Assembly: GCA_010093605.1 (NCBI GenBank)
Contig: MU004184.1
Location: forward strand, 250,179 to 314,178
Direction of reading: 5' to 3'
Origin: Lophium mytilinum
Taxonomy: Eukaryota > Ascomycota > Dothideomycetes > Mytilinidiales > Mytilinidiaceae
Length of the DNA stretch: 64,000 bases
Made by a program: the position numbers and the translations under genes. Each line of letters begins with the position of its first letter. Positions within the stretch are counted from its first letter, which is position 1. This document shows, in pieces, positions 1 to 56,610 of the stretch. A model generated the notes under the pieces. It searched no databases and was not told where the DNA came from. It was given only the letters and a program-made list of their open reading frames with translations.

Positions 1-2335
1 GTGACGTACCTGTTGTGCCTCTCTCGGAGTACCCGATCCTCCCACTCCGCCACCCCGAGAGGGCGAGGGGCGAAAAAATAAAGCTAATTATATGCCCCAC
101 TAAGCGAAGTTCGCATATCACATGTTTCCCACGTCCGTCACTTCCCCACCGTTATTATTTCTGCTGGCGCATCTTACCAGCGAACCGTTCAAAGACGTCT
201 TCAGATTCCTACCTATCGCTGCACTTCTTCAATTCGAGTGCTGCGCGCACCGCCGATCACGCGTCACGCGTCTCACCTCCGCACCACTTCCGCACCACCT
301 CCGTGAATCAACATCACGGTAGCTATCTACCCCTAGTCATCCAAGCCGATCTTTCAATTGCGCCCTTGGTACGCATGCTAAAGCTTCTGTGTCTGAAATG
401 CCCCATCCCCAATATCCCGTAGTCTTTTGACACACCTGACACACCTTCAGCTCTCACTTCAGGTCGCTATGAATCAAGCAGATGGTTTCTGGGGCGCATA
501 CTTGCTCCCCTGCCGCAAGAACCCCCGTCACAATAGATGGGGTTCGTTATGCTTGACAGGCGCGCCAGTCCCCGCCCCGGCTCCCACACGCACCATCTGG
601 AGAAGATCTTCGGCGCAACGATCCAGTCGATCTGCCCTTCGACGTGAAAGCTTCAACTTTATCGAGAATCATACACTAGACTAGGTCGTCGCCGAAGCAC
701 GCCAGCTTTCACACCCTCCACCGCCTACTCTTTGCCCGCCAGAAAACCCTTTTTGAATACCAGCACCGTTGAAGGAGACTAGGATATTGCGGTGGAGTTA
801 TACCAGATATAAGTCTTCAGGATTCATGTTTGTGGGTGCTCTGTGATCGGTATAACATTCAAGAGCAGCATATGGCACAGGTCTCAAGAGACTAGGGAGG
901 CGGCAGTATTGTCCACGAAGAAGTCATGTTTCACAGATTTCCAAGACCGGCTCCATCAACAAGTCTTCGATTCGAATAGCAAATAGTACAGCTGTTGGAT
1001 GAAAAAGCAAGCCCGTCTAAGATTTGGGGGACCGGAAGATAAGCGATATTATAAGTCTCCAAAGACAGCGGCTCAAAGGGTCGAGGTGCGGCCTATGGGC
1101 ACTGCTACTACTGCCCTTTGCTCCCTGTCGGTCGCAAGTACCGCCGTCTGGTCCTGCGAAGAACACTCATAGTTCTTCCTTCAATTTCCTCAGTAAGGAA
1201 ACGGTCTATCTTGGGGTCCGAAACAACTACTAGGCGTCCACGGAGAGCGCAAGACGATGTTCCGACCAAAGCTCGCTGCCAGTGTGGAGCGAAACGAAAA
1301 CAGGGCTAGACGGCTGGACATTTGCTCCGGCAAAGAGGCGCAGCTTGGGCTACGGTAGGGGCCAGCACCTCTTCTATAAAGCCTTATGTACCTGTAGCCC
1401 TGTTCGTCCTCTCTACATTATCATCCTCATGAGAGGATGGGACCGAAATCGCAATGTTCTGAGAAAGACCACTTTCTTATCGACGGCTACAAATGCTCTT
1501 GGCGTATGATCATCATGATACTAGTGTTTAGGCGTTCACAGTAGAGCCGATCCCCCGAACGAACAAAACTACAAGACCCCCCACTATTGTAACTACGAGA
1601 CCAGCAGCAAGAACGTTCATCTCTCACCACCTAGAGCGCGGGTTTACAAAGGTTTCCCATAACAGGACGCCATCTCGAGACGATTCACCAATCAATGGCG
1701 CGACCGAGCAAGGACGAAACACACGACGACTCATCTTTACACCTTCGTAATACTCCTCCGAAACGGCATCTTGGGCTTAGCGCCCACATCTCGAAGGAGA
1801 TGCTCCACGCTCCCGCTAGTAAGATCCAACAAGTCTTTCTTCCAGCACCAGATTCCTCAAGACACCAGCCCTCTTTTTTCTCCTCGCATCTGTCGCCAAC
1901 ACCACGAGATCAGCCTCCACTTCCTACGATACATTCCTTCCTGAGCCAGCAATTGGAGGCAGCCTAGCCATTCTTCACCTCGACGCGTCTTCCTTTGCAA
2001 ATCGACACTCTGAACCCTTCCACATAGACACATTTACCGTTTCTGAGGTCCCCGCCATTCCCTCGCGACCCTTACAAACTCTTCCCAAATACCCTGCAAC
2101 AACCATGCTCTACGACGGTGCCTTCTGGTATTGGTCGGAATGCTTTTCCTATTCGAGTATGGTACGCCTCGCCTACCGACTCGCAACCACGGCGCTACAA
2201 GGCACACGATCTGCGGCGCCGTCGCGCGCTATTGGGAAAGCTTGTCTTGACGTCGAAAGCCGGACATTGTACGAGATGGGAACAGCGGCTTAGGCATCCT
2301 TTTGACAGATGTCTTACTTGCTGGTTGGGCTACCC
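1..2335. other. no recognised gene
   Basis: Only short overlapping frames are present, on both strands, the longest about 135 codons at 15-422. None shows a family motif, and none has a convincing intron set or a clean start context. A frame starting at 2105 follows a C-rich leader, which is a common look for fungal 5' regions, but it is short and overlaps an equally long frame. I see nothing else in this stretch. Confidence 0.5.
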
Positions 2336-2637
2336 TTGACGGTGGTGTTGAGTGAACAAGACTGAAGCCTCAGCCGTGTTATATCCGAGTGCTCGAAACA
2401 TATTGCCTAATTCGCGGTGCCCGTACATGTGTGTGCGTGCTTTCTTTGCCACCGTTTGGGGTGGCTCTAGGGGGTTTCAAAACTCAAAATGCGATGTAAA
2501 GATCGACGCAGTAGATATTAAGTTGTCTTTTGACTAGTATCACTTGCTACCTGGAGTATTCCTGACAGTGGTATCGAGCGAGCAAGAGTGAAGCCCTAAT
2601 TATAACACATCCATGTCTTCGAATTGACTACATGAAG
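2336..2637. repeat. two diverged copies of a ~70 bp unit
   Basis: The blocks at about 2336-2406 and 2567-2637 align. Both carry a 'TGACRGTGGTRTYGAG' start, then 'GARCAAGASTGAAGCC', then a TTATA/ATAA stretch. The copies lie 231 bp apart. They do not form part of any convincing frame. Confidence 0.6.
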
Positions 2638-3600: not shown

Positions 3601-5214
3601 CGGCTCTTTCGTCCAAATCCTTCACGGCAAGCCTTCAAGCAAGATACGCATTGGAAGTCTTTGAATAGCGTGGGCATCTGGCATGGCGTAGAGTACGGCA
3701 AATTACGACACACCTCTCTTTTCCTTCCTACACGCAATCTAGCCTGCTCTTCGCTGGATTGGTTATGTTTTTTCCTCTGCTTTGAAGCGATGCGCAGTCG
3801 ATGGCGAGATTAGAAGAAATATAAGAGGATGTTGGAGGCGTACCGGTCACTATATTTGAACAGCAATAGCAGAGGATGCGTGTTGTAATTGTTTGGAATA
3901 GCGGCGTTATTACATGTCTGGCGGACGACGTGCACGAATACACTTCTACATATCCTGAACAAGGAGCGCTTCTTCCACGTGTTCTTGTCTCTGCTCTGCT
4001 TGAGATCGTCTGTAGCATCTTTTGTGTTACAATGAACTTCTCCCATTGCTCCCATAATTGCGACATCTTGTAGCATTCTTCCTTGCCAATTCTTGAAGCA
4101 TAACATATAACTTTCCCTGCTCGTGCTTAGAGCTACACACCTTCACGAGTGCCTTAACACATATCTCGGTTGCTTTCTTCCGTCACGGTAGCAGGCCTTA
4201 GTAGGCCTTCAAAACGGGCACGTGGTTTTTGACTACCTACGCTATAGTCTTGCTTAATCGACACCACTGTTAGGATTTCTCCAGCGAGCACGTCCTCGGT
4301 CAGGTAGAGAGTAACCAGATATGTACTGTGGAGTTCTACATCCAACTTGACTTTGGAAGACTTGAGGAGGTGCTGGGCAGGTGACAGCGTGGAAGGGACT
4401 GGAGTCACATCAACATTCAAGATTGAGATACAGGACAGAAGCTATAGATTCAGACGGCATGATAGGCCTGATACTCGGGACTTCCCTATAGTAATGTTGT
4501 ATTCTCCCGAAGCTATTCTTGGTATCGCTTAGCACTATTATCGTACAATTCACTCAGAGTTCTCTTAATGTAGCATTATAGACTGCACGGTAACTTCGCC
4601 TAGAACTAGAACAGGGCAAATCACGATGTGCTTTTAGATATGTCGCCGGCAACCCTCGAAGCTTTCTATATTCAACCTCGCTTAACTCTTCTCCCGATGT
4701 GCGGATGGCGGACTAGGAGCGATAAGGTAATGCATAACCCCGACGCCTCTCTTTTCTCCTTCCGAGACCGTTTTGAACGATAAAGCCGTCCATGATCAAG
4801 TAGATAGAGGAATATGGCTGGGCCTCTGACTTCGCAACTCTATTACTAGGATCAAGGGTACGTGTAACGAGATGCAGGGTATACTAGCTATTCTAGTGAT
4901 GCCGGCGACAAGGGGAGTTGCAACGTACTGAAGGAAGACCCAGCCCTAGGTGAGAACCGCCAAGTGAAGAGCTATTAGCTCTGGCAGGCTTTAAGATGAA
5001 GAAGTGAAAGAGTAACCTTATGATCAGACGTGACTTGAATCTTCCACTGCATTGAAATACTCGGTGAAATCTGGAGTCACATGCCCGCAAAAAGGTAGAT
5101 ATCTTGCGATGCTTCCAATGTCAAATCACATCACAACAACTAGAATACAGTATGTTCCAGGCATATTTCCTGTGGTATCAACTCCGCATTTGCATTTGAA
5201 CTAGCTAGGGAATA
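3601..5214. other. no recognised gene
   Basis: The stretch holds short frames only. The best is an 88-codon minus-strand frame at 4154-4420, moderately hydrophilic and without a known motif. It overlaps a shorter plus-strand frame. I see no repeat, RNA gene or good intron set here. Confidence 0.45.
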
Positions 5215-6135
5215 GCAGCCATGGGCGATACGATCCTCGCGAAAGCAACCACAAGAGCAGCAGATAGTCTGGCGCTGTCCTCCACCATAGCCACCGAGTC
5301 CTCCGCCGTCTCCACATGGGGCTCCGCTATAGCAATCGCCTCGTCTGGTGCTGTCCTCATGGTGTTGCCGGGCGTAGAGGCTGGGGTTCAGGCCAGCCGG
5401 TACCTTTGCCGGCCAGTCCTCACAAGAGAAGGCGTTTGTTCTCAGCTGGTGCTCGTGCCAAGTGTCCCGGGGCTCCGTAACGTCTTGTAGGCGGTAGATA
5501 GATTGAGGAACGAGAACTAGCGGCGGGGGATCGCCGTAATTCCGCAACGGGAGTCTTCGCTGCATCTTGTCTGAGGATCTTGATTGAATTAACAGAACAG
5601 TTCTCACTCCCCATCCGCTCTATCTTACGCCTCATCCACTTGGGGCTCCGCCGTAGCTACCACCGCCATTCTGGGTGCATGAGCGAGCGATGTGGCCAAC
5701 TTTGCTACACTTGTAGCACTCTTGGCCCGAGCGTCCCGCTTTTCCCTAGGTCTCCAGCAGCGACTTCAGTCGGGCAACCACACGAGACGTGACCAGCACG
5801 AGCGTCGTCCAGGTTCTGAAAACGGGGATGCCGCATCTTCCAGACGTTGAACCGTCGCCACAATTGCAGGACCCTTGGCCAGAGCTTCCCACTCTCCGTC
5901 CCAAGTTTCCGACAGCGGCCTCCAGAGGGCAGTCTCGCGAGACGTGACCGGTCTGGCCGCATCGGTAGCACGTCTTCTCGGCCTGGGGCTGGGTGCACTC
6001 GCGGCTGAGATGGCCCTTCTCGCCACAATAGTAGCAAGTCGGGTTGCCCTTGGACGGGCCGTCGCGCGCTTGATGGGTCGCGGAACGGGCATTGTTCCCA
6101 GCGGGAGATGAAACGGAACTGGATCGTTTGCCGGT
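5215..6135 (-). pseudogene. decayed Gis2/Byr3/CNBP-type CCHC zinc-knuckle gene
   Basis: Read on the minus strand, this segment carries CCHC knuckles (CX2CX4HX4C) in the order seen in fungal Gis2/Byr3, a single-stranded nucleic-acid and ribosome-associated protein. The knuckles are CYYCGEKGHLSREC (~5998-6040), CYRCGQTGHVSRDC (~5935-5976) and CYKCSKVGHIARSC (~5677-5718). A Gly-Tyr-rich linker follows, then a damaged knuckle near 5215-5260 (CCSCG). The phrase THQARDGPSKGNPT before the first intact knuckle matches the usual end of knuckle 1, with its last Cys lost. Between 5770 and 5900 a knuckle block is present twice in damaged form. The frame changes several times, so this is not an intact gene. 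The knuckle order and Gly-rich linkers fit Gis2 better than a retroelement gag. Confidence 0.8.

Positions 6136-9127: not shown

Positions 9128-9191
<64 letters not shown>
9128..9191. repeat. (GA)n microsatellite, ~32 units
   Basis: This is an uninterrupted GA dinucleotide run of about 64 bp, ending in AAAAGGGG. It directly abuts the last copy of the 8.2-9.1 kb repeat. Confidence 0.95.
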
Positions 9192-16340: not shown

Positions 16341-16443
16341 AAAATTTTGAAGCTACTCTTTGATAAAGCGTGTCATCCTTAGTGCAGGGGCCATGCTAAT
16401 CTTCTCTGTGTTGTTTCAAATTGACCAAATGCCCGAAGGCGAA
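16341..16443 (-). ncRNA. U6: U6 spliceosomal snRNA, uninterrupted copy
   Basis: The minus strand carries the core of U6 without a break: a short 5' hairpin (GCCTTCGGGC), then TTGGTCAATTTGAAACAA, the invariant ACAGAGA box, the catalytic AGC triad in TTAGCATGGCC, CCTGCACTAAGGATGACACGC of the internal stem-loop, and a T8 run (16337-16344) as Pol III terminator. U6 forms the catalytic core of the spliceosome with U2. The 5' end is estimated from the hairpin. A TATA-like element lies upstream and a B-box downstream, so the gene looks active. The second copy at 47.5 kb is nearly identical but has an intron between GAGAAG and ATTAGC. Confidence 0.95.
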
Positions 16444-20910: not shown

Positions 20911-23900
20911 CTGATGGGTTTCGTTGCGGCTCGGGTGCGTGGAGAGTGTGATGCGTCGTGCGGGTACGTGCCTAAGTGGGTGTAGCAGATGCTAGCGAAT
21001 GTGGTGATGATGATAGATGAAAGGGCGACGGAGGCGACGAGGAGAGGCAGTGGCCTTCAGAGGTAGCTGCGGAGGAAGACATGGGACGAGCGGACCTCGG
21101 GAGGTCACTGATGTGAGAAGGGCGGTCCCGTGATTGGTAGTCAATGTCGGTATCGACTAGCGGGAATATGAGATACGTACTTATCTTTTGGGTGATGCCG
21201 GTGCGCGCGCCGACATCCTCTTGGCAGAAGCCGCTTGGGGGGCGTGGTGGGGAGGAGAGCGGAGGGGACAGGGCGGAGTGAAGCGTGCGGGGGAAGAGCG
21301 TAGAGGGAAGGAAGTAGAGTGAATGGAGTAGTCAAGCGAGTGGATGAGAAGAGTGGATGATGAATGTGGATGGAAGAGAGGGCAGGGAAGAAACTGGAGG
21401 GTGATGTTTTGGCGCAGACTTTGACGCGTCGGAAGTGGGTGACGTCAGCAGATATTTGCAGCGCTCGCGACCACACCACTCCGCCACACAAAGAGAGATT
21501 GATCGGGCGGTTAAAACTTAGTAGAGTATCGGGTGAGCAAACGTGAACCTTTGCCTCCGCAGTGGGACCCAAGGATGAGCTGCTCTGCCAGTATCAAAGC
21601 CACCTACAAACTTGTTATCAAGTTCCAGAAACTGAACATTGAACATGCGGAAGAGGTATTGAGTAATAAAAAAATCATTAAGATCATCGGGAGCCCGCAA
21701 GCCCACTAAATCAAGAGGTACCAGAAATATTGAATGTGTTCATGAATGAAGGGAGGTCGTGAGAAGGTGTAGATTCCAGAAGAACATACCGCGTCTGGAG
21801 GAGTCCGTTGTTGGGCGTTCCCCGCTATGATTCCCGGGTGCACGGCCTGGTTGTAGAATACTCGAAGGAGGGCTGCGGGCGGCAGTCCTGCAGATGGAAG
21901 TTTCGCCGAGGAACTCTTGTGAGGAGGCGCGGGTTGTTGTAGAGGGTAGTGGATTGTTGTTGACACACTTGGGTTCGAGTCCGCTATGCTGACGACGGGG
22001 AGCAACCGCGCCGGTACGCCGAAGCAGGGAACGCATCTTGCATCGATTAGCTCGAGAGCGGCAAAGTCACACTGTATACTTCCCTTCTATGTTCAAACTG
22101 CGTTGTGGCTCATTGCTCAGGCATGTTCATTTCCGACAAGAGCTGGTCTCTTTGGCTTGGTGTCTATGTCATCTCGGTCAGCTTCCCGTGGTCTGGCTGT
22201 CTTTTCTTCCCTGGACGATTTCGGGATCCGCTCCCAAGCCAGCTTCGTCTAAAGCCTATCTTTGCTTGTAAAAATAGAAGTGAAAGTAAAAGAAAATGTG
22301 TCACCTGTACCAACTGTTGCAGGAAGGACCTCGCCCTTGCAGCGACATATCGGTGACCGCTTACCATCACACAGTAGGAAGGCCCCCAGGTTGGGTTCCT
22401 AACGCCACTGGAGAGGAAGAACATCAATTTTGCGCTTGTGAACACACGGCGTGCGTGGACCGAGGTAATGGTTTATCAACTGCGGGAAAGTCGAAGACAC
22501 TCCTCTTGCGCCGGGGAGGTAGATGATCGTCGAAGAAAGTGTAGGCTGTGCGAAGTTTGGAAAGGTCCGAGGACTTACTTTACGCAGGGATGGTGGCAGG
22601 ATGGAGATCTCAATCCAGTCTAAGAGAAACTATTAGCATAGCGCATGAAGCCTGAGTGGATAGGAGCGAACCCTGTTGAAGCCTCCGCAGTTGTGGCCAA
22701 AGTGTGACCATGCGAAGGCGCGGACTTACAACGCAAGAGATCAATCATCTCATGCCGCAGACTTGGCGTCGCAATTGTAACCGTGTTGATATTGTTTGAG
22801 ACTTGCTTGCTGTGATCGGGGGTTGGAAGGGTGTGAATTTCAACCGCGAGGGTTTGACGCCAAGCTGACGTGGGAGATGTCGCCGAAGGCAATGTTGCGC
22901 GTCCGAGGAAGGAGGAAGGGGGCAGATGCTCCAAGATACGGACCAGCAGCTTGCTGTCAGTATGGTCTTTCTACTCGCGAGAAAGTGACGCTGGCGGGGG
23001 GTGCTTTGCTGAGACTCAACCAACTGGAACACGGTGACATTGTCAGTGACATGCCTTTCGTCACTTTGAGGATTGTGCATACTGACCAAATCGTTTGCAG
23101 GCGAGAGAGGTGCTTTTGCGTGAGATGGTGATAGTGGGAGAAACAGGGAAAAGGTTTGTGTTATGATTCGAGGATGTTCTGAAGGCAAGTAGATGTCGCT
23201 TAAAGCCGATTCTGCGCATTGTTGCTGGGCAACCCAGAGCGCCGCTCTGACTGCGAGTGCCACTGTCTCTTGATGATCCGAACCAGATCCGAACTCGATC
23301 CGTGTAGCAGCCCGTCTGCCTGTCCGTCTAGTGGACCAGATGTCCGGTTAAAATGGTCGATTACTTTCTTCTAGCGTTGCTGAGTCATGCTGAGTCAGCG
23401 AGTTTTCCACCGACTACAAGAACTCGATCCCACACAGTACCTGAACCTCAGCTCTCTTGTAAGTCCCAACTCCACCCCATCGTTCGAGCATCGTTCACTA
23501 ACAACATTCACAGTGCCCTTCGGCTTAGCTGAGGCATAGCTCCTCTTCGGTTTAATCGCTGGAGATGCTTTTTTCAGTCTTTGGAAACCGTTCTTGGGCC
23601 GCTGGGCTTGCTTACGTCCAGGAGCACCGTGTCGCTCGTATTGCACTGCCTCGGGCCGACGCGAACTTTTTTCATTGAACTTCTCAGCTTGTCTGGGGCT
23701 TCGAAGAAGAAATGGTCTTTCTATCTGCTTCCTTCACTCTTTGTGCGACGCTGGAATATTCTGCCTTGCTTGCTTGAATCGCTGTGACCGTGTTTTTTTC
23801 GTGAAGCTGCAGTTTTTGACGCGTTTACGTCATTGCTAGGACGCGCTGCCTCAACCACCACACGCTCAGCATATTTGCGATGGCTGCTTGCGTGAATACA

Positions 23901-33459: not shown

Positions 33460-34080
33460 TCCACAGCATCTTCTGACTCGATGGCAATCAGGTTGTGATT
33501 TGGGGCGGGGGGCGGTCGGTTTTGGGGGGTGTTTCGGTGTGTTGTGGGGATTCTGCGGCTTCCTTTTCTGTTCATCTTGAAGAAGGCTCTGTGCACTGGA
33601 TATTGCACGGTGGTAGCTAGTATTTTGGCCTGTTGGGATGGCGACGTGTCCGGCTTCAATGCCAAACAAGAGGCTTTTCTTCTCTCCGCAATCTAAACTT
33701 GGAATGTGATTATGGTTGTGATTAAGTCTCACATCAAACTGCTTGAAGAGTGCTCTTGCCGTCTGAATGCAACCGTCTGAAGTCCTTTAGCCTATTGTGA
33801 AAATTGAGGGTACGATGTCAAGTTCTGCACGGGCCATAACTGGTGTTGACCATTTCGGCTAATCATAGGGGCGCATGTCTTGGCGAAGCGCTTCCGTTTG
33901 CTCTCACGAGCAATTTTTCACAACTCGCTATTCCCACTACTTGACCACTCCAATTACCCTTTTCGCCTGAATCAGACCCCCTGAAAGATCCAAACGGGAT
34001 CAAAGGATGCTTCTCCGCGCCGAGTCCTGTCGCACGCGTTTTGGTCACGACCATTGTCCTCCCCGGCTGGCGATGGCACT
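33460..34080. other. no recognised gene
   Basis: A G-rich stretch lies at 33500-33550 ('GGGGCGGGGGGCGG'). The overlapping minus-strand frames look like shadows. Nothing else is seen before the large array. Confidence 0.4.
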
Positions 34081-37000
34081 ACTTCGGCTTCAATTCTGCT
34101 CACCGCACACCACTGTCAGGAGCAGCCTAAGTAGCATGTTGTTGGTAAGCCAAAGGGGAAGCTCCTAGTACTCTCAGCATTCCGCTCGTTTCTAAACATT
34201 GCTTTTGCTCGTGACATACCACTGTCAGGAGCGCGCCAACTAGCAGTCTGCTTACCTGCCAAAAGTAAACTTTCCACTACCGCTACCATCCTAACACCTC
34301 TCGAAAATCTCCTTTATCCACCGGACACCACTGTCAGGAGCGGCCCCACCGGCAGGTTGTTAGTCAGTCAAAAGGATACCTCCCTGCCCCGGCAGCACTC
34401 TGATTAGACTTAGGCTTTGTCTTGGTCACAGGAGACCACTGTGAGGAGGACCCTAACTAGCAGGTGACTGGCCAGTCATAAGGAATCCTCCAAGCCCCGG
34501 CAGCATTCTGATCCGACTCAGGTTTCGCGTTGCTGGAAGAATATCGCTGTTAGGAGGACCCTGGCTAGTATATCGTAGGTTAGCCAACAGGAAACCTCTC
34601 GGTTTCGTGAGTACTTCAATTCCAATTGGAGTTCGCTTTTCCTCTTGGTACACCGCTGTCAGGAGCGGCCCGACTAGCAGATTGTTGGTCAGTCAGAAGA
34701 AAACCTCATAATCGCGGCAGCTTTCTGACCCCAATTAGGCTTTGTCTTGCTCACAGAATACCGCCGTAAGGAGGACCCTAACTAGTAAGTGACTGGTTAG
34801 TCAAAAGGGAACACCCCCCCGGACTGGAGTAGTCTGACTCCGTTTGGACTTCGCTTTTCTCGTGGTATACCGCTGTCAGGAATGGCCCGGCCGGGAGAAT
34901 ATTGGTTAGTCAAAAGGATTTTTACTACTGTTGTTACAGTTCTTTTTCCTTCTAGACTTCAATTTGTTCCTTCAAGACTTCGCATTTGCTCGCCGGATAC
35001 CACTGTCAGGGGCAGCCTGACTGGTACGTTGTTAGCCAGTTAAAGAGACTCCTCCCATTGCTGCTAGAATTCCTATACCACTTATACTTTACTTTTGTTC
35101 GCGGGATGTCACTGTCAGGGGCGGCCTGACTACTATGTCTTCGGTCAGTCAAGATGAGATCTTCCACTGCTGGCAGCGTTCCCATCCCTTCTACGGCTGA
35201 GAGGATGCTATTGGGCTCATCAGGCTTCACATTTGATCACGGATTGCCACTGTGAGGAGCACCCTGCCTGATACGTTGTTCCTCAGTCAAAGGGAAACCT
35301 TCCGCTGCTGTCAGCAGTGAAAGATGGGATGTGGGTCGATTGGGCCGCTCAGGCTTCACATTTGATCACGGAATACCACTGTCAGGCGCGCCTCAGCCGG
35401 AAGGTTGATGACTAGTCAAAAGTGAACCTCCCGCTGTCGTCGGCATTCAAATCTAGAATGTGGGTTGATTGAGCCGCTCGGGCTTCACGTTTGCTTACTT
35501 GATGCCACTATGAGGCGCACCCTGACTGGTAGGATATTGCTTAGGCAAAAGGAAAATCCCGCTACCGCTTAGGTTCTAACTACACCTGCTGTTAAGGGCA
35601 CGCGATCGAACTACCTAAAATATACGTCTGTTCACCGAATACCACTGTAGGGAGCACCCCGCCTGTTAGGTGTTTCAGTAGTCGAAGGGAACCCCCCAGC
35701 TATCGCCAGCGCTCTCATCCAGTCGTTGGGTAACATCCTGCGACCTGACTGCTCGGGCTTTGTATCTGCTTGCCGAATGCCGCTGCGAGGAGCGGCCTGA
35801 CTGGTAGGTTGCTAGCTGAATAAAAGGGAACCTCCGCACAGTCGCTAGCATTGCGATCCCAGCTGTGATGGACAGCCTGCAATCAGACTGCTTGAATCTA
35901 CGGCTTTGGTTTTTATTAGCGGACTTCGAGCTTTTTCGTATAGAGTAACTTTTCCCTATCCTAGTACGTGTTTTTCCCCATTCTCTTTACTCCCGAAACA
36001 AATCAAATTCTTTATTCCCGTTCGAGAATGCCTGCCGCCAATCCCTTTGCGAAGGTGATTGGGTGGTGGAGGCAGAGGTGAGAGAAGTTGAGGTTGGTGC
36101 AGTGGCCCTTAGAGGAGAAGACCACAGCTGCGAGAACCGATGAGGTGGGTGGATGCTCACCCGGGCTAATGGCTAAGCCTGCGGTGAGACACAGCTTCTC
36201 GAGCTACATATCTGCTCACCGGATGTCACCGTGAGGAGCCCCTAGGGAAGCTCGTTCCCTAGTCAAATGCAATCGTCCCACTGATACAAGCAGCTGGAAC
36301 CCACCTGCGGGTGGGTGATAGAGGACGGTCGAACTCCTGGGGCTACACTTTGGCTCACCGAATACCGCCGTGAGGAGCGCCCCCACGAGAAAGTCGATGA
36401 TAAGTCAAAAAGATGCCTCCCACTGCTAGTAGGATTTGGAAACTCCTTACGAGTGAGTGATAGAGAGCGGTCGGCCTCCCTTAGACTACAGATTTGCTAG
36501 TCGGATACCACTGTAAGGAGAACCCCCACGGATGTTTTGTTGCTAGGTCAAAAGGAAGCATTCCACTGCCGCCAGCATTCGAAATGATCCTGTGGGTAAC
36601 AGCAAATGGGCGGAAGGTATGGACTCTCCTCTGTCTCGGACTATTACCTGTTTTGCAGCTTCAGCTAATGGTGACCATACAGCCAATGACGGGAGTGCCA
36701 AAACAGATGGATAGGAAGACACAGACGCCAGAGATGTTGAAGGTAGCCTCGCCTCCAGGGCATACGATGAACCTAGGCACACAAACGCCTGACTAATCTC
36801 TTGCTTGTCAAACACCACCGTCAGGAGTCTCCCGGCGAGCACCTCTTCGGCCAGTCAAACGAAACCCTTCCAACACCTAAGAGGACATCGCCGACAGTCA
36901 GCCGTAGGCACAAAGATATCTCACTGGTCGAGCGCCTCTATTGCTCGCTGAACACCACCGTAGGGAGTCCCTTGGCGAGTACCTCTGCAGTCAGTCAAAC

Positions 37001-39190
37001 GGTATCCTTCCGCCGCGTAAAGGCCATCACGGACCGCCTTCGGCACACATATTCATACATCACTGCCCAGACGCCTATTTTGCTCGCTGATCACCACTTT
37101 GAGGAGTCCTCTGGCTAGCACCTCTTCGATCATGCAGACCGTATCTTTCCACCGCCCATGAGAGCAACACTGGCAGCATTCTATATATATACGTTGAGGC
37201 ATGCGGAAATGACGATGGATGGGCTGCAGTGTTTCTCTAGGAACACCACTGTAGGGAGGATCCCAGGTGGCACGTCTTCGGTGGGTCAAACAGGACCTTT
37301 TCGCCACCCTCAAGGACAACACAAACAACCTTCGATATTGCCCGTGAGGAACGCGGGGATAGCAATTTTGATGATCAAGAAATTCTCTACAGACATCACT
37401 GTGGGGAGGACTGCAGCTAGCACGTCGTCGGCCAGTCAAAATGTGTTCTTCCGCCGAGTAACGTTTTTGGCGTAGGTACTGATGGTTTTAGATCCCCGTC
37501 GTCGGTCTCATTAGCTCTGGTGAGAGTCTTAAGGGGGCTCTGGCCGAGGCGATGGAGGAGCGCCCGCCCTTTCCACCGCGTCCTCGCCGCCGCATTCCCG
37601 TGCGGGACCGCGGGACTGCCTCCAGCCGCCCTCGTCGTCACCACCATCCCTGCCAGCCGCCGAGAAGAAGAAGAGGAGGAAGAAGCAAAAGGATGAGGAG
37701 GAGGACGTAGAACAAGAAGAAAAAGGCTACAAGATCGTCTAAGTATATCCGTCTCTGGTGACATTCTGGATGTATACATCTCTAACAGACTCTCCCAGCA
37801 TCCCTACCTTCTATAACGCCACTCCGGCTCCAGATTTAATAAATGAACATCCTTGTATAGAGCACCCTGATTCACCGGTATTTAGAGAGCTAATAGGTTA
37901 CCTAATTCCCACTGCGAGACATTCACAGCGCAGTCGTGCGCAGAACATACGTACATTCGACTCTACACGCGGATACGGAACTACTCGACCTACAACCTGA
38001 CTCCCATGAAATCGCTTCACGGAGGATCCTGACACTCAGATGTTCGCCTAGTGAAGCAGTAGCCCACTGCGTCGACTCCCGCTCACCACATCCACACAAA
38101 GAGCATTTAAGCCTTGGCTCTACAGACAGCTATAGGCCTGCTCCAGCTTCAACTTTTGTCACTGGAAACCGCTGTATGGAGCAGCCTGGTTAGTTCCTGG
38201 CTGGCTGGCCAAAAGGCTCTCTTGTTGCGGTCGTCTCCTCGCTAGACTCTCTTCCATATTGAATACCATACCGCAGCACAAAACGGTTGGTACGTGGATA
38301 TTGTCCACGTTGAGCTCAAAGCATTTTCGCTCATCGCCACCGCACGGAGTACGCTGACTAGGGGCTGGCTGGGCACCTAAAAGGCTGTCTTGCTTCTATG
38401 CTTTCTACGCCAGATGCTCTTCTACAATGGAGTTTGCAGGTTGTTAGCTTTGGATTGTGCACATATCACTATATAAGATCCACACTTGCACACTCGACGC
38501 CACCGTGTGGTGAAGCTCGACCTAGAGGAAGCTAGCTAGCAAACAGCCTTCCCGCTTCCCGCCGCCATAGTTTTGGATTACTATGTTGATTGTAGACTGT
38601 AGGTCTAAATTTTAAGTACGTGGTTATACCAACGCGCAAATTCCGCTCTTGTATACTCGAGGCCCTCGTGCGGAACAACTCAGCGAGTACTGCACTGGCC
38701 AGTCAAACGGCCGGTTGATTCCCACTCACCCTGTGACAGATTCCCACTTTCATCAGAGACCAAAGATTATCAGCTTAAGGTTGTGAATATATACCACATG
38801 AGCTCTGCTCTTGCGCGCTCCTGTCGACCGCGGGAAGAAGCTCGGCTAGCAAGTCAATGGCCTGTCCATAGGGCTCCCTAACTCATACTGACTGCCATGG
38901 CCACAGCCCGTAAGCGTGTGGGTTGTGCTCCCTGTCATATGCTGGCACCTGACCTCCGGAGGATCGTCGGCCCGGCCTGTAGCCTGACGCCTTTGTTTAC
39001 AGCGCCGGCCTCCGGTCTTCCTCTCTCTCTTAGCATACAACATCTAGTTATCTCTTCACCTACGTATTTCTCTGTGATCGTGAGCCAATAGTCGGGACAG
39101 TTGCTCTATCAGATCCCATCTTCACCAGCTCAGGTCCTGTATACTCAACGCCACCGAGTTGGTCGCTGGCCAGCCAAAAGGTTTCGTGTC
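34081..39190 (+). repeat. 5-kb array of ~28 divergent units with growing period
   Basis: Each unit contains, in order, 'GCTTYRCATTTGCTCRCSGRAT', 'ACCACTGTCAGGAGC', a 'CCTGACTRGTAGGTTGTTRG' block, 'GTCAGTCAAAAGG' and 'AACCTCCCRCTGC'. The CCACTG landmark falls at 34110, 34219, 34328, 34436, 34544, 34653, 34761, 34870, 35000, 35109, 35247, 35376, 35505, 35642, 35780, 36226, 36365, 36508, 36815, 36955, 37094, 37246, 37396, 38169, 38337, 38500, 38663, ~38825 and 39151. Spacing is 108-109 bp for the first seven steps, then 129-138, 139-152, and 162-168 at the end. Larger gaps (446, 307, 773, 326) match missing, decayed or interrupted units. Several units can form a short stem between TRACTRG and CYRGTYA. 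The period is not a multiple of three and no frame survives, so the array is non-coding. Its role is unknown. Confidence 0.9.
37500..37742 (+). other. GC-rich segment interrupting the array
   Basis: Within the 773-bp gap of the array lies a GC-rich segment with a frame ending AAEKKKRRKKQKDEEEDVEQ and a stop at 37742, preceded by a Pro/Ser-rich stretch. It starts without an ATG. A GT...CTAAC...CAG intron-like segment follows (about 37744-37800). It looks like one exon of a basic-then-acidic protein inserted into, or left behind in, the array. A 120-codon minus frame overlaps it. No family is recognised. Confidence 0.4.
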
Positions 39191-39219
39191 TTTCACCGCG
39201 TCACTTCTCGACTCTACGG

Positions 39220-39959
39220 GTAAGTACGCCATGTCAAGCCCCGACCCCTGTCCATTCGAATGATGAGACCTATTGAGAGCTTTCAATTGATCTATCCGAA
39301 GCGCCCAACCGCGGTTGCTATTGCATTGCACGGCGCATCTGCGACCCGCTGGTTGGGCTTGTGGGAACTAAACAGTCTGACCCTACACCTATCTCACGCA
39401 TTTCGATTTAGCATTGTCTAAGCACCTGTCAACTAATCTTCTTATAGATTCTTACGATGTTATCTCGTCAATCCCACAAGTGAGTACACCCTGTCAATTT
39501 TTCAACCCCACCTGTTCGAATGATGAACCCCCGGAAGCCAACACACGTCTATTCGAAGTGCCCAACCGCGATTGCTATTGCATTGCATAGCGCATCGGCG
39601 AACCGCTGGTTGGGCTTGTGGACACCGCCCAATCTGAAACTACGCCTATCCTCACACATGTCGTCCTAACATTCTCAGAACTCTTGCTCACTAATACTCC
39701 TGTAGACTCTCAAGATGTTATCCCGCCAGCTCCACAAGTAAGCCCGCCCCATCAGATCCCAGCTACACCTATTCAAATGATGATACCATTTTTTACTTGA
39801 TCTATCCAAAGCGCCCAAACACGGTTGCTATTGCATTGCACTACGCATCTGCGAACCGTCGGTTGGGCTTGCGGAAACTAAAGATTCTGACACTACGTCC
39901 ATCCTCATTCTTTTTGAGCTAGCATTGTTTTGTACTCTCGTTAACTCTTTTTCGCATAG
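39220..39959 (+). repeat. three tandem introns with a shared hairpin and duplicated 32-nt exons
   Basis: Three introns (39220-39447, 39480-39705, 39738-39959; 228, 226 and 222 bp) are copies of one another. Donors are GTAAGT, GTGAGT and GTAAGC, and each ends with a CTAAY or TTAAC branch and TAG. All share 'GTTGCTATTGCATTGCA' in the loop and arms 'GCCCAACC'/'GGTTGGGC' that can pair (arms partly changed in copy 3). The two exons between them are each exactly 32 nt (39448-39479 and 39706-39737) and copies of each other (reading SYDVI..PQ and SQDVI..PQ). So the unit intron plus exon, ~258 bp, was duplicated. Confidence 0.85.
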
Positions 39960-40190
39960 ATGCCCACGGGTCCCTCTCACGAGGCCATCAACAGCGACAG
40001 CCTATACCCTAGACCAGGTGGCATGCTTACGACGAACCTACCAACTCTTCCTACAATTGCTGTTGGCGCTGCTGATGGTCAGCCGAACCACACTCCCCCT
40101 GCAATGTACCAAAAAGGTCGACGCATGAAGCCGCGACTCATCGGGCAAGTTCCTGAGAGCTTCGACACCCAGGTCACAGGTGCTGGATGA
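39960..40190 (+). CDS. last exon after the tandem introns, 76 codons
   Basis: After the third intron a frame begins MPTGPSHEAINSDSLYPRPG at the first base of the exon and ends SFDTQVTGAG. A second frame is also open for ~55 codons. If either 32-nt exon is entered in the phase giving DSxDVI, it leaves the intron in phase 0 and joins this frame. Using both exons would shift the frame. The protein is polar, Pro- and Gly-containing, with no recognised domain. Adjacent to its stop another 105-codon frame (40187-40504) overlaps by 4 bp; it is basic (LDIRKLERKKEGL) and of unknown nature. Confidence 0.35.
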   Translation: MPTGPSHEAINSDSLYPRPGGMLTTNLPTLPTIAVGAADGQPNHTPPAMYQKGRRMKPRLIGQVPESFDTQVTGAG

Positions 40191-47479: not shown

Positions 47480-47630
47480 AAAATGTTGAAGCAACTCTTT
47501 GATAGAGCGTGTCATCCTTAGTGCAGGGGCCATGCTAATCTGGAAGATATTAGTTTTGAAGCTGAGTGACGGGGGGATGGTACACACCTTCTCTGTGTTG
47601 TTTCAAATTGACCAAATGCCCGAAGGCGAA
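47480..47630 (-). ncRNA. U6: U6 spliceosomal snRNA with a 48-nt spliceosomal-type intron
   Basis: On the minus strand the U6 5' hairpin, the TTGGTCAATTTGAAACAA segment and ACAGAGAAG are followed by a 48-nt insert (47540-47587), then ATTAGCATGGCC, the internal stem-loop and a T7 terminator (47477-47483). The insert starts GTGTGT, has CTAAT nine nucleotides before its end, and ends CAG. Removing it restores the exact U6 sequence of the copy at 16.4 kb. mRNA-type introns in U6 are known from fission yeast and several other fungi. They are thought to arise when a lariat intron is inserted near the catalytic site of U6. The 3' stem differs from copy 1 by a few bases. It is probably active after splicing. 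Confidence 0.93.

Positions 47631-56572: not shown

Positions 56573-56610
<38 letters not shown>
56573..56610. repeat. poly(G) homopolymer, 38 G on the plus strand
   Basis: This is a pure G run, 38 bases as given, flanked by TACTCA and TGCTCTTGG. Such a tract can form G-quadruplex structure and is prone to length error in sequencing. Confidence 0.9.

Follow-up and report, generated by a model that had tools for sequence, protein, structure and literature searches.

The window, a 64,000-nucleotide stretch of contig MU004184.1 from the genome assembly of the fungus Lophium mytilinum (GCA_010093605.1), contains an array of about 30 head-to-tail copies of a conserved core. The whole array occupies 34068..39197 (+), starting 42 bp ahead of the first core and ending with a last half core, and all of its cores lie on the + strand both by direct reading and in the scans. 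An initial annotation, made from the sequence alone, had described a 5-kb array with 29 landmarks. The array is real, and the count was off by no more than one or two. At a threshold of 16, an ungapped weight-matrix scan found 28 cores between 34110 and 38825 and missed the core at 36226, which carries a 3-bp deletion, and nhmmer added a half core at 39151. A 19-letter core pattern allowing up to 3 mismatches matched the window 39 times, against 9.0 ± 2.7 matches in shuffled sequences (0 of 100 shuffles reached 39). Tandem Repeats Finder recovered two fragments of the array only.

Measured from core start to core start, the array opens with seven steps of 108-109 bp, exactly as the initial annotation had them. 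Steps of 130, 109, 138, 129, 129, 137 and 138 bp follow, then a gap of ~447 bp with steps of 139 and 143 bp behind it, a gap of 307 bp and steps of 140, 139, 152 and 150 bp. At the right end, two longer gaps (~454 and 319 bp) precede steps of 168, 163, 163 and 162 bp. The distances of ~447, 307, 454 and 319 bp mark sites of lost or decayed cores. The annotation had also claimed that the period grows along the array. As a trend this stands (108-109, then ~129-138, 139-152 and finally 162-168 bp), but the increase is not monotonic, since the order in the left half includes 109-130-109-138-129.

The core is not confined to this locus. The genome-wide search that the annotation had suggested (43.18 Mb, 24 contigs) revealed a dispersed family: a strict core pattern gave 79 matches on 19 of the 24 contigs, and the reversed-pattern control gave 0. 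The matches were 45 nt long in 72 of the 79, 44 nt in 4, 41 nt in 1 and 56 nt in 2. Elsewhere, the 45-nt form turned up in 17 stretches of a 257-Gb prokaryote collection and in 3 of IMG/VR. Given these low counts and the empty reversed control, we conclude that the module is specific to this genome. Twenty-four regions were fetched from the 38 extra matches of the strict genome search. The window and all fetched loci together hold 293 cores (weight matrix, threshold 12) in 68 clusters, many of them clipped by the ends of the fetched stretches; 23 are single copies, the rest have 2-29 cores, and the window array is the largest. Of the 286 cores scoring at least 20, about 8% of those that did not recruit their own locus fit the strict pattern, which translates into a rough estimate of ~960 copies genome-wide. 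A literature search found no family of this kind in titles or abstract beginnings, which is weak evidence of absence as subscription journals lay mostly outside it.

An ungapped alignment of 178 units on the core defined the module. The core (0 to +47) carries two strong boxes, CCACTGT.AGGAG and GTCAAAAGG, the latter at positions 39-47. Conserved positions comprise TTG at -14, A-CC(A/G)C(C/T)GT-N-(A/G)GGAG at -1 to 12 and CC at 16-17; the middle of the core is variable in sequence and fixed in length. Two further boxes flank it. Matches to CTTTACAT (at least 7 of 8 letters) start at +72 in 33 of 36 cases. Of the 42 matches to CGGATAT (at least 6 of 7 letters), 40 begin 42 to 40 bp before the next core, and none lies in the 108-bp class. 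The 23 single copies include CGGATAT in 5 and CTTTACAT in 8. The module thus extends from -42 to about +79, or 122 bp; subtracting this from repeats of 129, 140, 151 and 162 bp leaves linkers of ~7, 18, 29 and 40 bp. Fixed box offsets, together with the 45-nt core of those 72 strict matches, amount to conserved boxes with fixed internal spacing, as for an operator array. Beyond the module, the single copies show a weak, partly palindromic consensus like GGGGTACCCCAAGCAG at about +105 to +125.

We analysed the distances between cores as steps of up to 260 bp in the first loci (n = 129) or of 60-175 bp in all loci (n = 192). Two loci, L028 (overlapping L027) and L038 (overlapping L037), were excluded from these spacing analyses, as was the stretch of L049 shared with the window; the nhmmer set of 201 matches still includes them. 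Repeat lengths fall near 86, 108, 119, 129, 139, 151 and 162 bp, with 151 and 162 bp the commonest. The best period in the first loci was 10.75-10.80 bp (R = 0.80). Loci fetched later showed the same classes (107, 129, 150-151 and 161-162 bp) plus 86 bp, and their 71 steps of up to 175 bp average a cosine of 0.88 at 10.75 bp. Altogether, 180 of the 192 steps lie within 2 bp of a multiple of 10.77 bp, a period fitted in-sample, where chance would place ~37% (4/10.77). The 12 off-lattice steps belong to weaker cores (Mann-Whitney p = 0.002), and in the top quartile of core scores 49 of 49 steps are on the lattice. After runs of equal steps were collapsed (81 runs, 38 arrays), 0 of 2000 jittered sets fit as well. 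Spacers composed of 11-bp subrepeats were rejected, identity being 0.258 at lag 11 against a mean of 0.259, and gapped alignments for placing 11-bp insertions or deletions (indels) proved too permissive.

Do neighbouring units keep their length as their sequences diverge? Over 28 arrays, 145 pairs of successive steps were compared: the two lengths agree to within 1 bp in 108 pairs, are 2 bp apart in 3 and at least 3 bp apart in 34. Of these 34 larger changes, 22 are lattice steps, versus 9.5 expected. Compared without gaps, adjacent spacers are about 50% identical. Those alignments were restricted to units no more than 3 bp from a class length and are hence biased to equal length, a bias that the 108 of 145 does not share. 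In simulations at 50% substitution, a rate of 0.02 indels per substitution kept 35% of units within 1 bp, and a rate of 0.1 kept 4%. As an imperfect control, alignments of three intron-like repeats in the window show 64, 70 and 42 mismatches and, respectively, 6, 6 and 11 gaps. Step quantisation and length stasis together suggest that neighbouring modules are set at helical-turn distances.

Within the window array, unit similarity drops with distance in bases (Mantel r = -0.52, a value reached by none of 5000 permutations; of the 26 window units 25 were used, unit 36226 being left out). In a FastTree tree, read without support values, neighbours in position cluster (w19-w23, w24-w26, w16-w18, w11-w14 and w09-w10). 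Such a tie between similarity and position is what the initial annotation had expected of stepwise growth from one end. Local stepwise growth is borne out; a one-way gradient as a mark of growth from one end is not. The steps of L036 descend (162, 161, 162, 161, 163, 151, 129, 129, 129), and mixed orders occur in L045 (162-151-162) and L041 (161-107-151); L057 has twelve steps of 107 bp and L074 ten of 150-151 bp. Spacers of the 151- and 162-bp classes are most similar between adjacent units, less so between more distant units of the same array and least so between arrays. The 108-bp class shows a clear contrast only within versus between arrays, and in the cores of the 162-bp class, units at least 3 apart (0.558) are not above other arrays (0.562).

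Adjacent units are 0.65-0.67 identical in the core and 0.51-0.62 in spacer parts. They are not homogenised, as the annotation had noted, and the concerted evolution of a classical satellite is not seen. The family does share with satellites its head-to-tail, non-coding tandem repeats; as to location, it is spread over the 19 contigs with strict matches, and the fetched arrays lie between open reading frames (ORFs). Sharing an array adds little to the similarity of units of different length classes (0.41/0.32, versus 0.39/0.31 for units of different arrays), and for this reason the apparent gradient looks like a series of blocks, each amplified separately and locally, which is our preferred reading of the growing period. 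Between arrays, a 151-bp unit resembles a 162-bp unit (0.438/0.330) as much as units of one of these classes resemble each other (0.435/0.342). Hence length does not closely track descent, which speaks against a single origin for each class. Part of the 108-bp block of the window has a 289-bp gap-free match of 88.9% identity on contig C16. The shared stretch there lies in a second array with 108-bp steps, at 4129-5732 (-) of locus L008 (C16:746000-755999).

We propose, and give an even chance to, the explanation that the array is a row of operator-like, putative protein-binding modules whose neighbours sit on one face of the helix and which grew by local duplication. A large DNA-binding protein or complex would read the core and flanking boxes, and neighbouring bound complexes would touch, stack or loop. 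Adjacent modules would hence have to share a helix face, and helical phase would come under selection. With neighbours so held, the linker could change only by about one helical turn (~7, 18, 29, 40 bp), giving discrete repeat lengths. Local tandem duplication would enlarge the arrays, and where blocks of one array began from units of differing but phased length, the period would appear to grow. We infer protein binding, neighbour contact and phase selection from a single genome. The annotation had suggested a size-constrained unit for binding or folding. Stasis and quantisation point to the binding type; the structure tests given below did not find a folding RNA element.

Several observations weigh against this proposal. 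When each of the 7 length classes counts once, the lattice is fitted equally well by 902 of 5000 random sets, so that quantisation alone is not significant if each class arose only once. The period of 10.77 bp was fitted on the same steps on which it was tested; with free phase, periods of 10.5-11 bp all fit (R 0.80-0.90), and the canonical 10.5 bp with an offset would also serve. Steps of 137-138 bp sit 2-3 bp off the lattice, which is demonstrated for steps of 60-175 bp and not for those of 170-260 bp. The flanking boxes are far from universal: CGGATAT stands at -42 to -40 in just 58 of 262 array copies and CTTTACAT at +72 in just 99 of 262 at a looser cut-off. In 12 folding tests, two long stretches came out slightly more stable than their column shuffles (0/25 and 1/25 as low). 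Finally, a point-mutation process such as repeat-induced point mutation (RIP) could add divergence without indels.

This last point bears on a neutral dispersed satellite, spread via small DNA circles or unequal exchange, in which the lattice would reflect circle closure near whole turns. We regard such an origin as possible, though doubtful. Local duplication and block structure agree with it, as does the class-level lattice test. The base composition of the units also leaves room for divergence without indels: one of two RIP indices is raised, with TpA/ApT at 1.26 in units versus 0.78 outside, GC content is 0.473 in units versus 0.520, and C>T plus G>A make up 258 of 531 changes at conserved positions. 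However, transitions account for just 0.50-0.55 of spacer mismatches, and RIP, though it may contribute, is not the main story. Neutral drift also sits poorly with the 108 of 145 step pairs that stay within 1 bp despite spacers only ~50% identical, when even 0.02 indels per substitution retained 35% of simulated units. Nor would it predict that weak cores accompany off-lattice steps, or that strong boxes stand next to freely varying positions, which is unlike uniform decay.

Perhaps the family, with an estimated thousand or so copies in helical register, forms a system that addresses or pairs chromosomes throughout the genome? Intergenic sites on almost all chromosomes would then be read, or brought together, by a nucleoprotein filament or by duplexes recognising each other as proposed for Neurospora. 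We find this improbable. The Neurospora study reports that RIP recognises homologous triplets with an 11- or 12-bp periodicity, and proposes pairing of slightly underwound duplexes (PMC4858203). That process resembles the present lattice as a helical-register rule in a fungus; it differs in being induced and in acting on artificial repeats (PMC4858203), and any link between it and the present fixed module would be conjectural.

It is quite unlikely that the repeats phase nucleosomes, each unit positioning one, with 151 and 162 bp as nucleosome repeat lengths. These two classes are the commonest and are near fungal nucleosome repeat lengths, but the steps of 86, 107-109 and 129 bp fall short of the length of a nucleosome core, and L057 has twelve of them at 107 bp. 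The spacers have no excess of A/T-dinucleotide periodicity at 10.5 or 10.75 bp, though WW dinucleotides (W, A or T) reach z 4.1 at 10.0 bp; over whole units including the boxes, AA/TT reach z ~6 at 10.25-10.5 bp.

We hold it to be very unlikely that the arrays are decayed tandem parts of a small transposable element, whether like a short interspersed nuclear element or another non-autonomous type. Single copies are dispersed alongside arrays, the 23 single copies share weak similarity beyond the module, and a stretch of the window array recurs on C16, all of which such an element could explain. However, when 136 flank stretches of up to 500 bp from 68 clusters were compared by BLAST, no common body emerged, in a comparison that included no search for target-site duplications; flank matches between different loci numbered three and were short (27, 32 and 52 bp). 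ARAGORN found no transfer RNA in the window, and Rfam had no match in the array at its curated threshold.

The initial annotation had called the array non-coding and unlike any family it knew; both points are supported, the latter as far as Rfam families go. Over the core region, 17-44 of the 178 units are open per frame in the six frames, compared with 44.6 in shuffles, so that no frame is open across units; the common repeat length of 151 is not a multiple of 3. The two Rfam matches in the array are at chance level, far below threshold. Two box filters reduced the 178 units to the 145 used in the larger mutual-information test, the folding tests and the helix scan. RNAalifold on 42 copies gave no consensus pair, mutual information on 40 and on 145 copies gave no convincing covariation, and in a helix scan of the 145 copies the best 5-bp helix was complete in 32% (expected 31%). 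Some helices do stand out from their shuffles (z 4-6), but none of these is complete in more than 21% of copies. An RNA gene or self-cleaving ribozyme repeat was rejected, there being no helix common to most copies and no Rfam match. Least likely of all are tandem genes of an unknown small RNA, for which a ~150-nt unit with conserved boxes and the weak folding excess in two long stretches would speak, and against which these structure and Rfam results stand.

How does a row of putative binding modules compare with known systems? Alpha satellite with its CENP-B box is likewise a head-to-tail, non-coding repeat in which a short box stays conserved within a diverged unit. Unlike alpha satellite, the present arrays are short and lie between putative genes on 19 of 24 contigs; homogenisation is absent, and the units come in several lengths that differ by roughly one helical turn. 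Lac-type operators and other DNA-looping sites must share a helix face; the same-face placement proposed here is read from sequence only, and hundreds of copies in oriented arrays set the family apart from them. The polar fork barrier RTS1 of fission yeast has short, oriented, repeated motifs that are protein-bound and intergenic. By description, not by sequence, the present arrays are alike in their short oriented motifs in intergenic DNA; RTS1 is a single locus, whereas this family is spread over many.

What is new here is the spacing: steps almost all near whole helical turns across diverged arrays suggest a protein-binding element rather than ordinary repeat junk. If so, repeat lengths locked to the helix, and better conserved than the sequence itself, would be a natural record of selection on the three-dimensional geometry of DNA. 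The module would also offer a practical handle, a bait sequence and tests of linker length, for finding a large DNA-binding factor, and a handle on the role of phased arrays between genes.

ORFs of at least 170 codons, used as stand-ins for genes, lie on both sides of 31 of the 65 clusters outside the window; 34 lack one on at least one side. The 31 settings are convergent in 15, tandem in 15 (10 along the array direction, 5 against) and divergent in 1. Hence the arrays seem to avoid divergent, promoter-bearing gaps between these putative genes, and this scarcity would fit a boundary, terminator or chromosome-organising role. The coordinates of the array blocks and of outlying copies in the window are collected in Table 1.

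Table 1. Core-bearing features of the window. Core starts in the blocks were read from the sequence.
Feature	Position	Strand	Details
Block 1	34110..35156	+	ten 48-bp cores, at 34110, 34219, 34328, 34436, 34544, 34653, 34761, 34870, 35000, 35109; steps 108-109, one 130
Block 2	35247..35827	+	cores 35247, 35376, 35505, 35642, 35780; steps 129-138
Block 3	36226..36555	+	cores 36226 (3-bp deletion), 36365, 36508; steps ~139, 143
Block 4	36815..37141	+	cores 36815, 36955, 37094; steps 140, 139
Block 5	37246..37443	+	cores 37246, 37396; step 150; 152 from block 4
Block 6	38169..38872	+	cores 38169, 38337, 38500, weaker ones to 38825; steps 168, 163, 163, 162
Last half core, 3' part only	39151..39197	+	nhmmer E = 0.00026
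Outlying core copy	2298..2345	-	nhmmer E = 1e-14
Outlying core copy, ~226 bp from the copy at 2298..2345	2524..2571	-	nhmmer E = 1.3e-16
Outlying single core	4264..4311	+	nhmmer E = 5.2e-12

Directly after the array, at 39228-39960 (+), lie three diverged tandem repeats of ~250 bp with intron-like starts (GTAAGT, GTGAGT and GTAAGC). By eye, they hold TGATGA and CTGA boxes, as in a host gene of C/D small nucleolar RNAs; Rfam gave no match to them. Pfam returned one match, below threshold, for ten ORFs of the window. A U6 small nuclear RNA gene at 47480-47627 (-) scored 57.4 bits in Rfam, and by eye its ACAGAGA region is seemingly parted from ATTAGCATGG by a ~47-nt intron-like insert, GTGTGT...CAG. 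A second U6 gene, at 16341-16440 (-), scored 86.5 bits and is without the insert. A U2-like match at 23504-23670 (+) reached 46.6 bits, the curated threshold being 46. The window also contains a perfect (GA)32 tract at 9128-9191 and a run of 38 G at 56573-56610.

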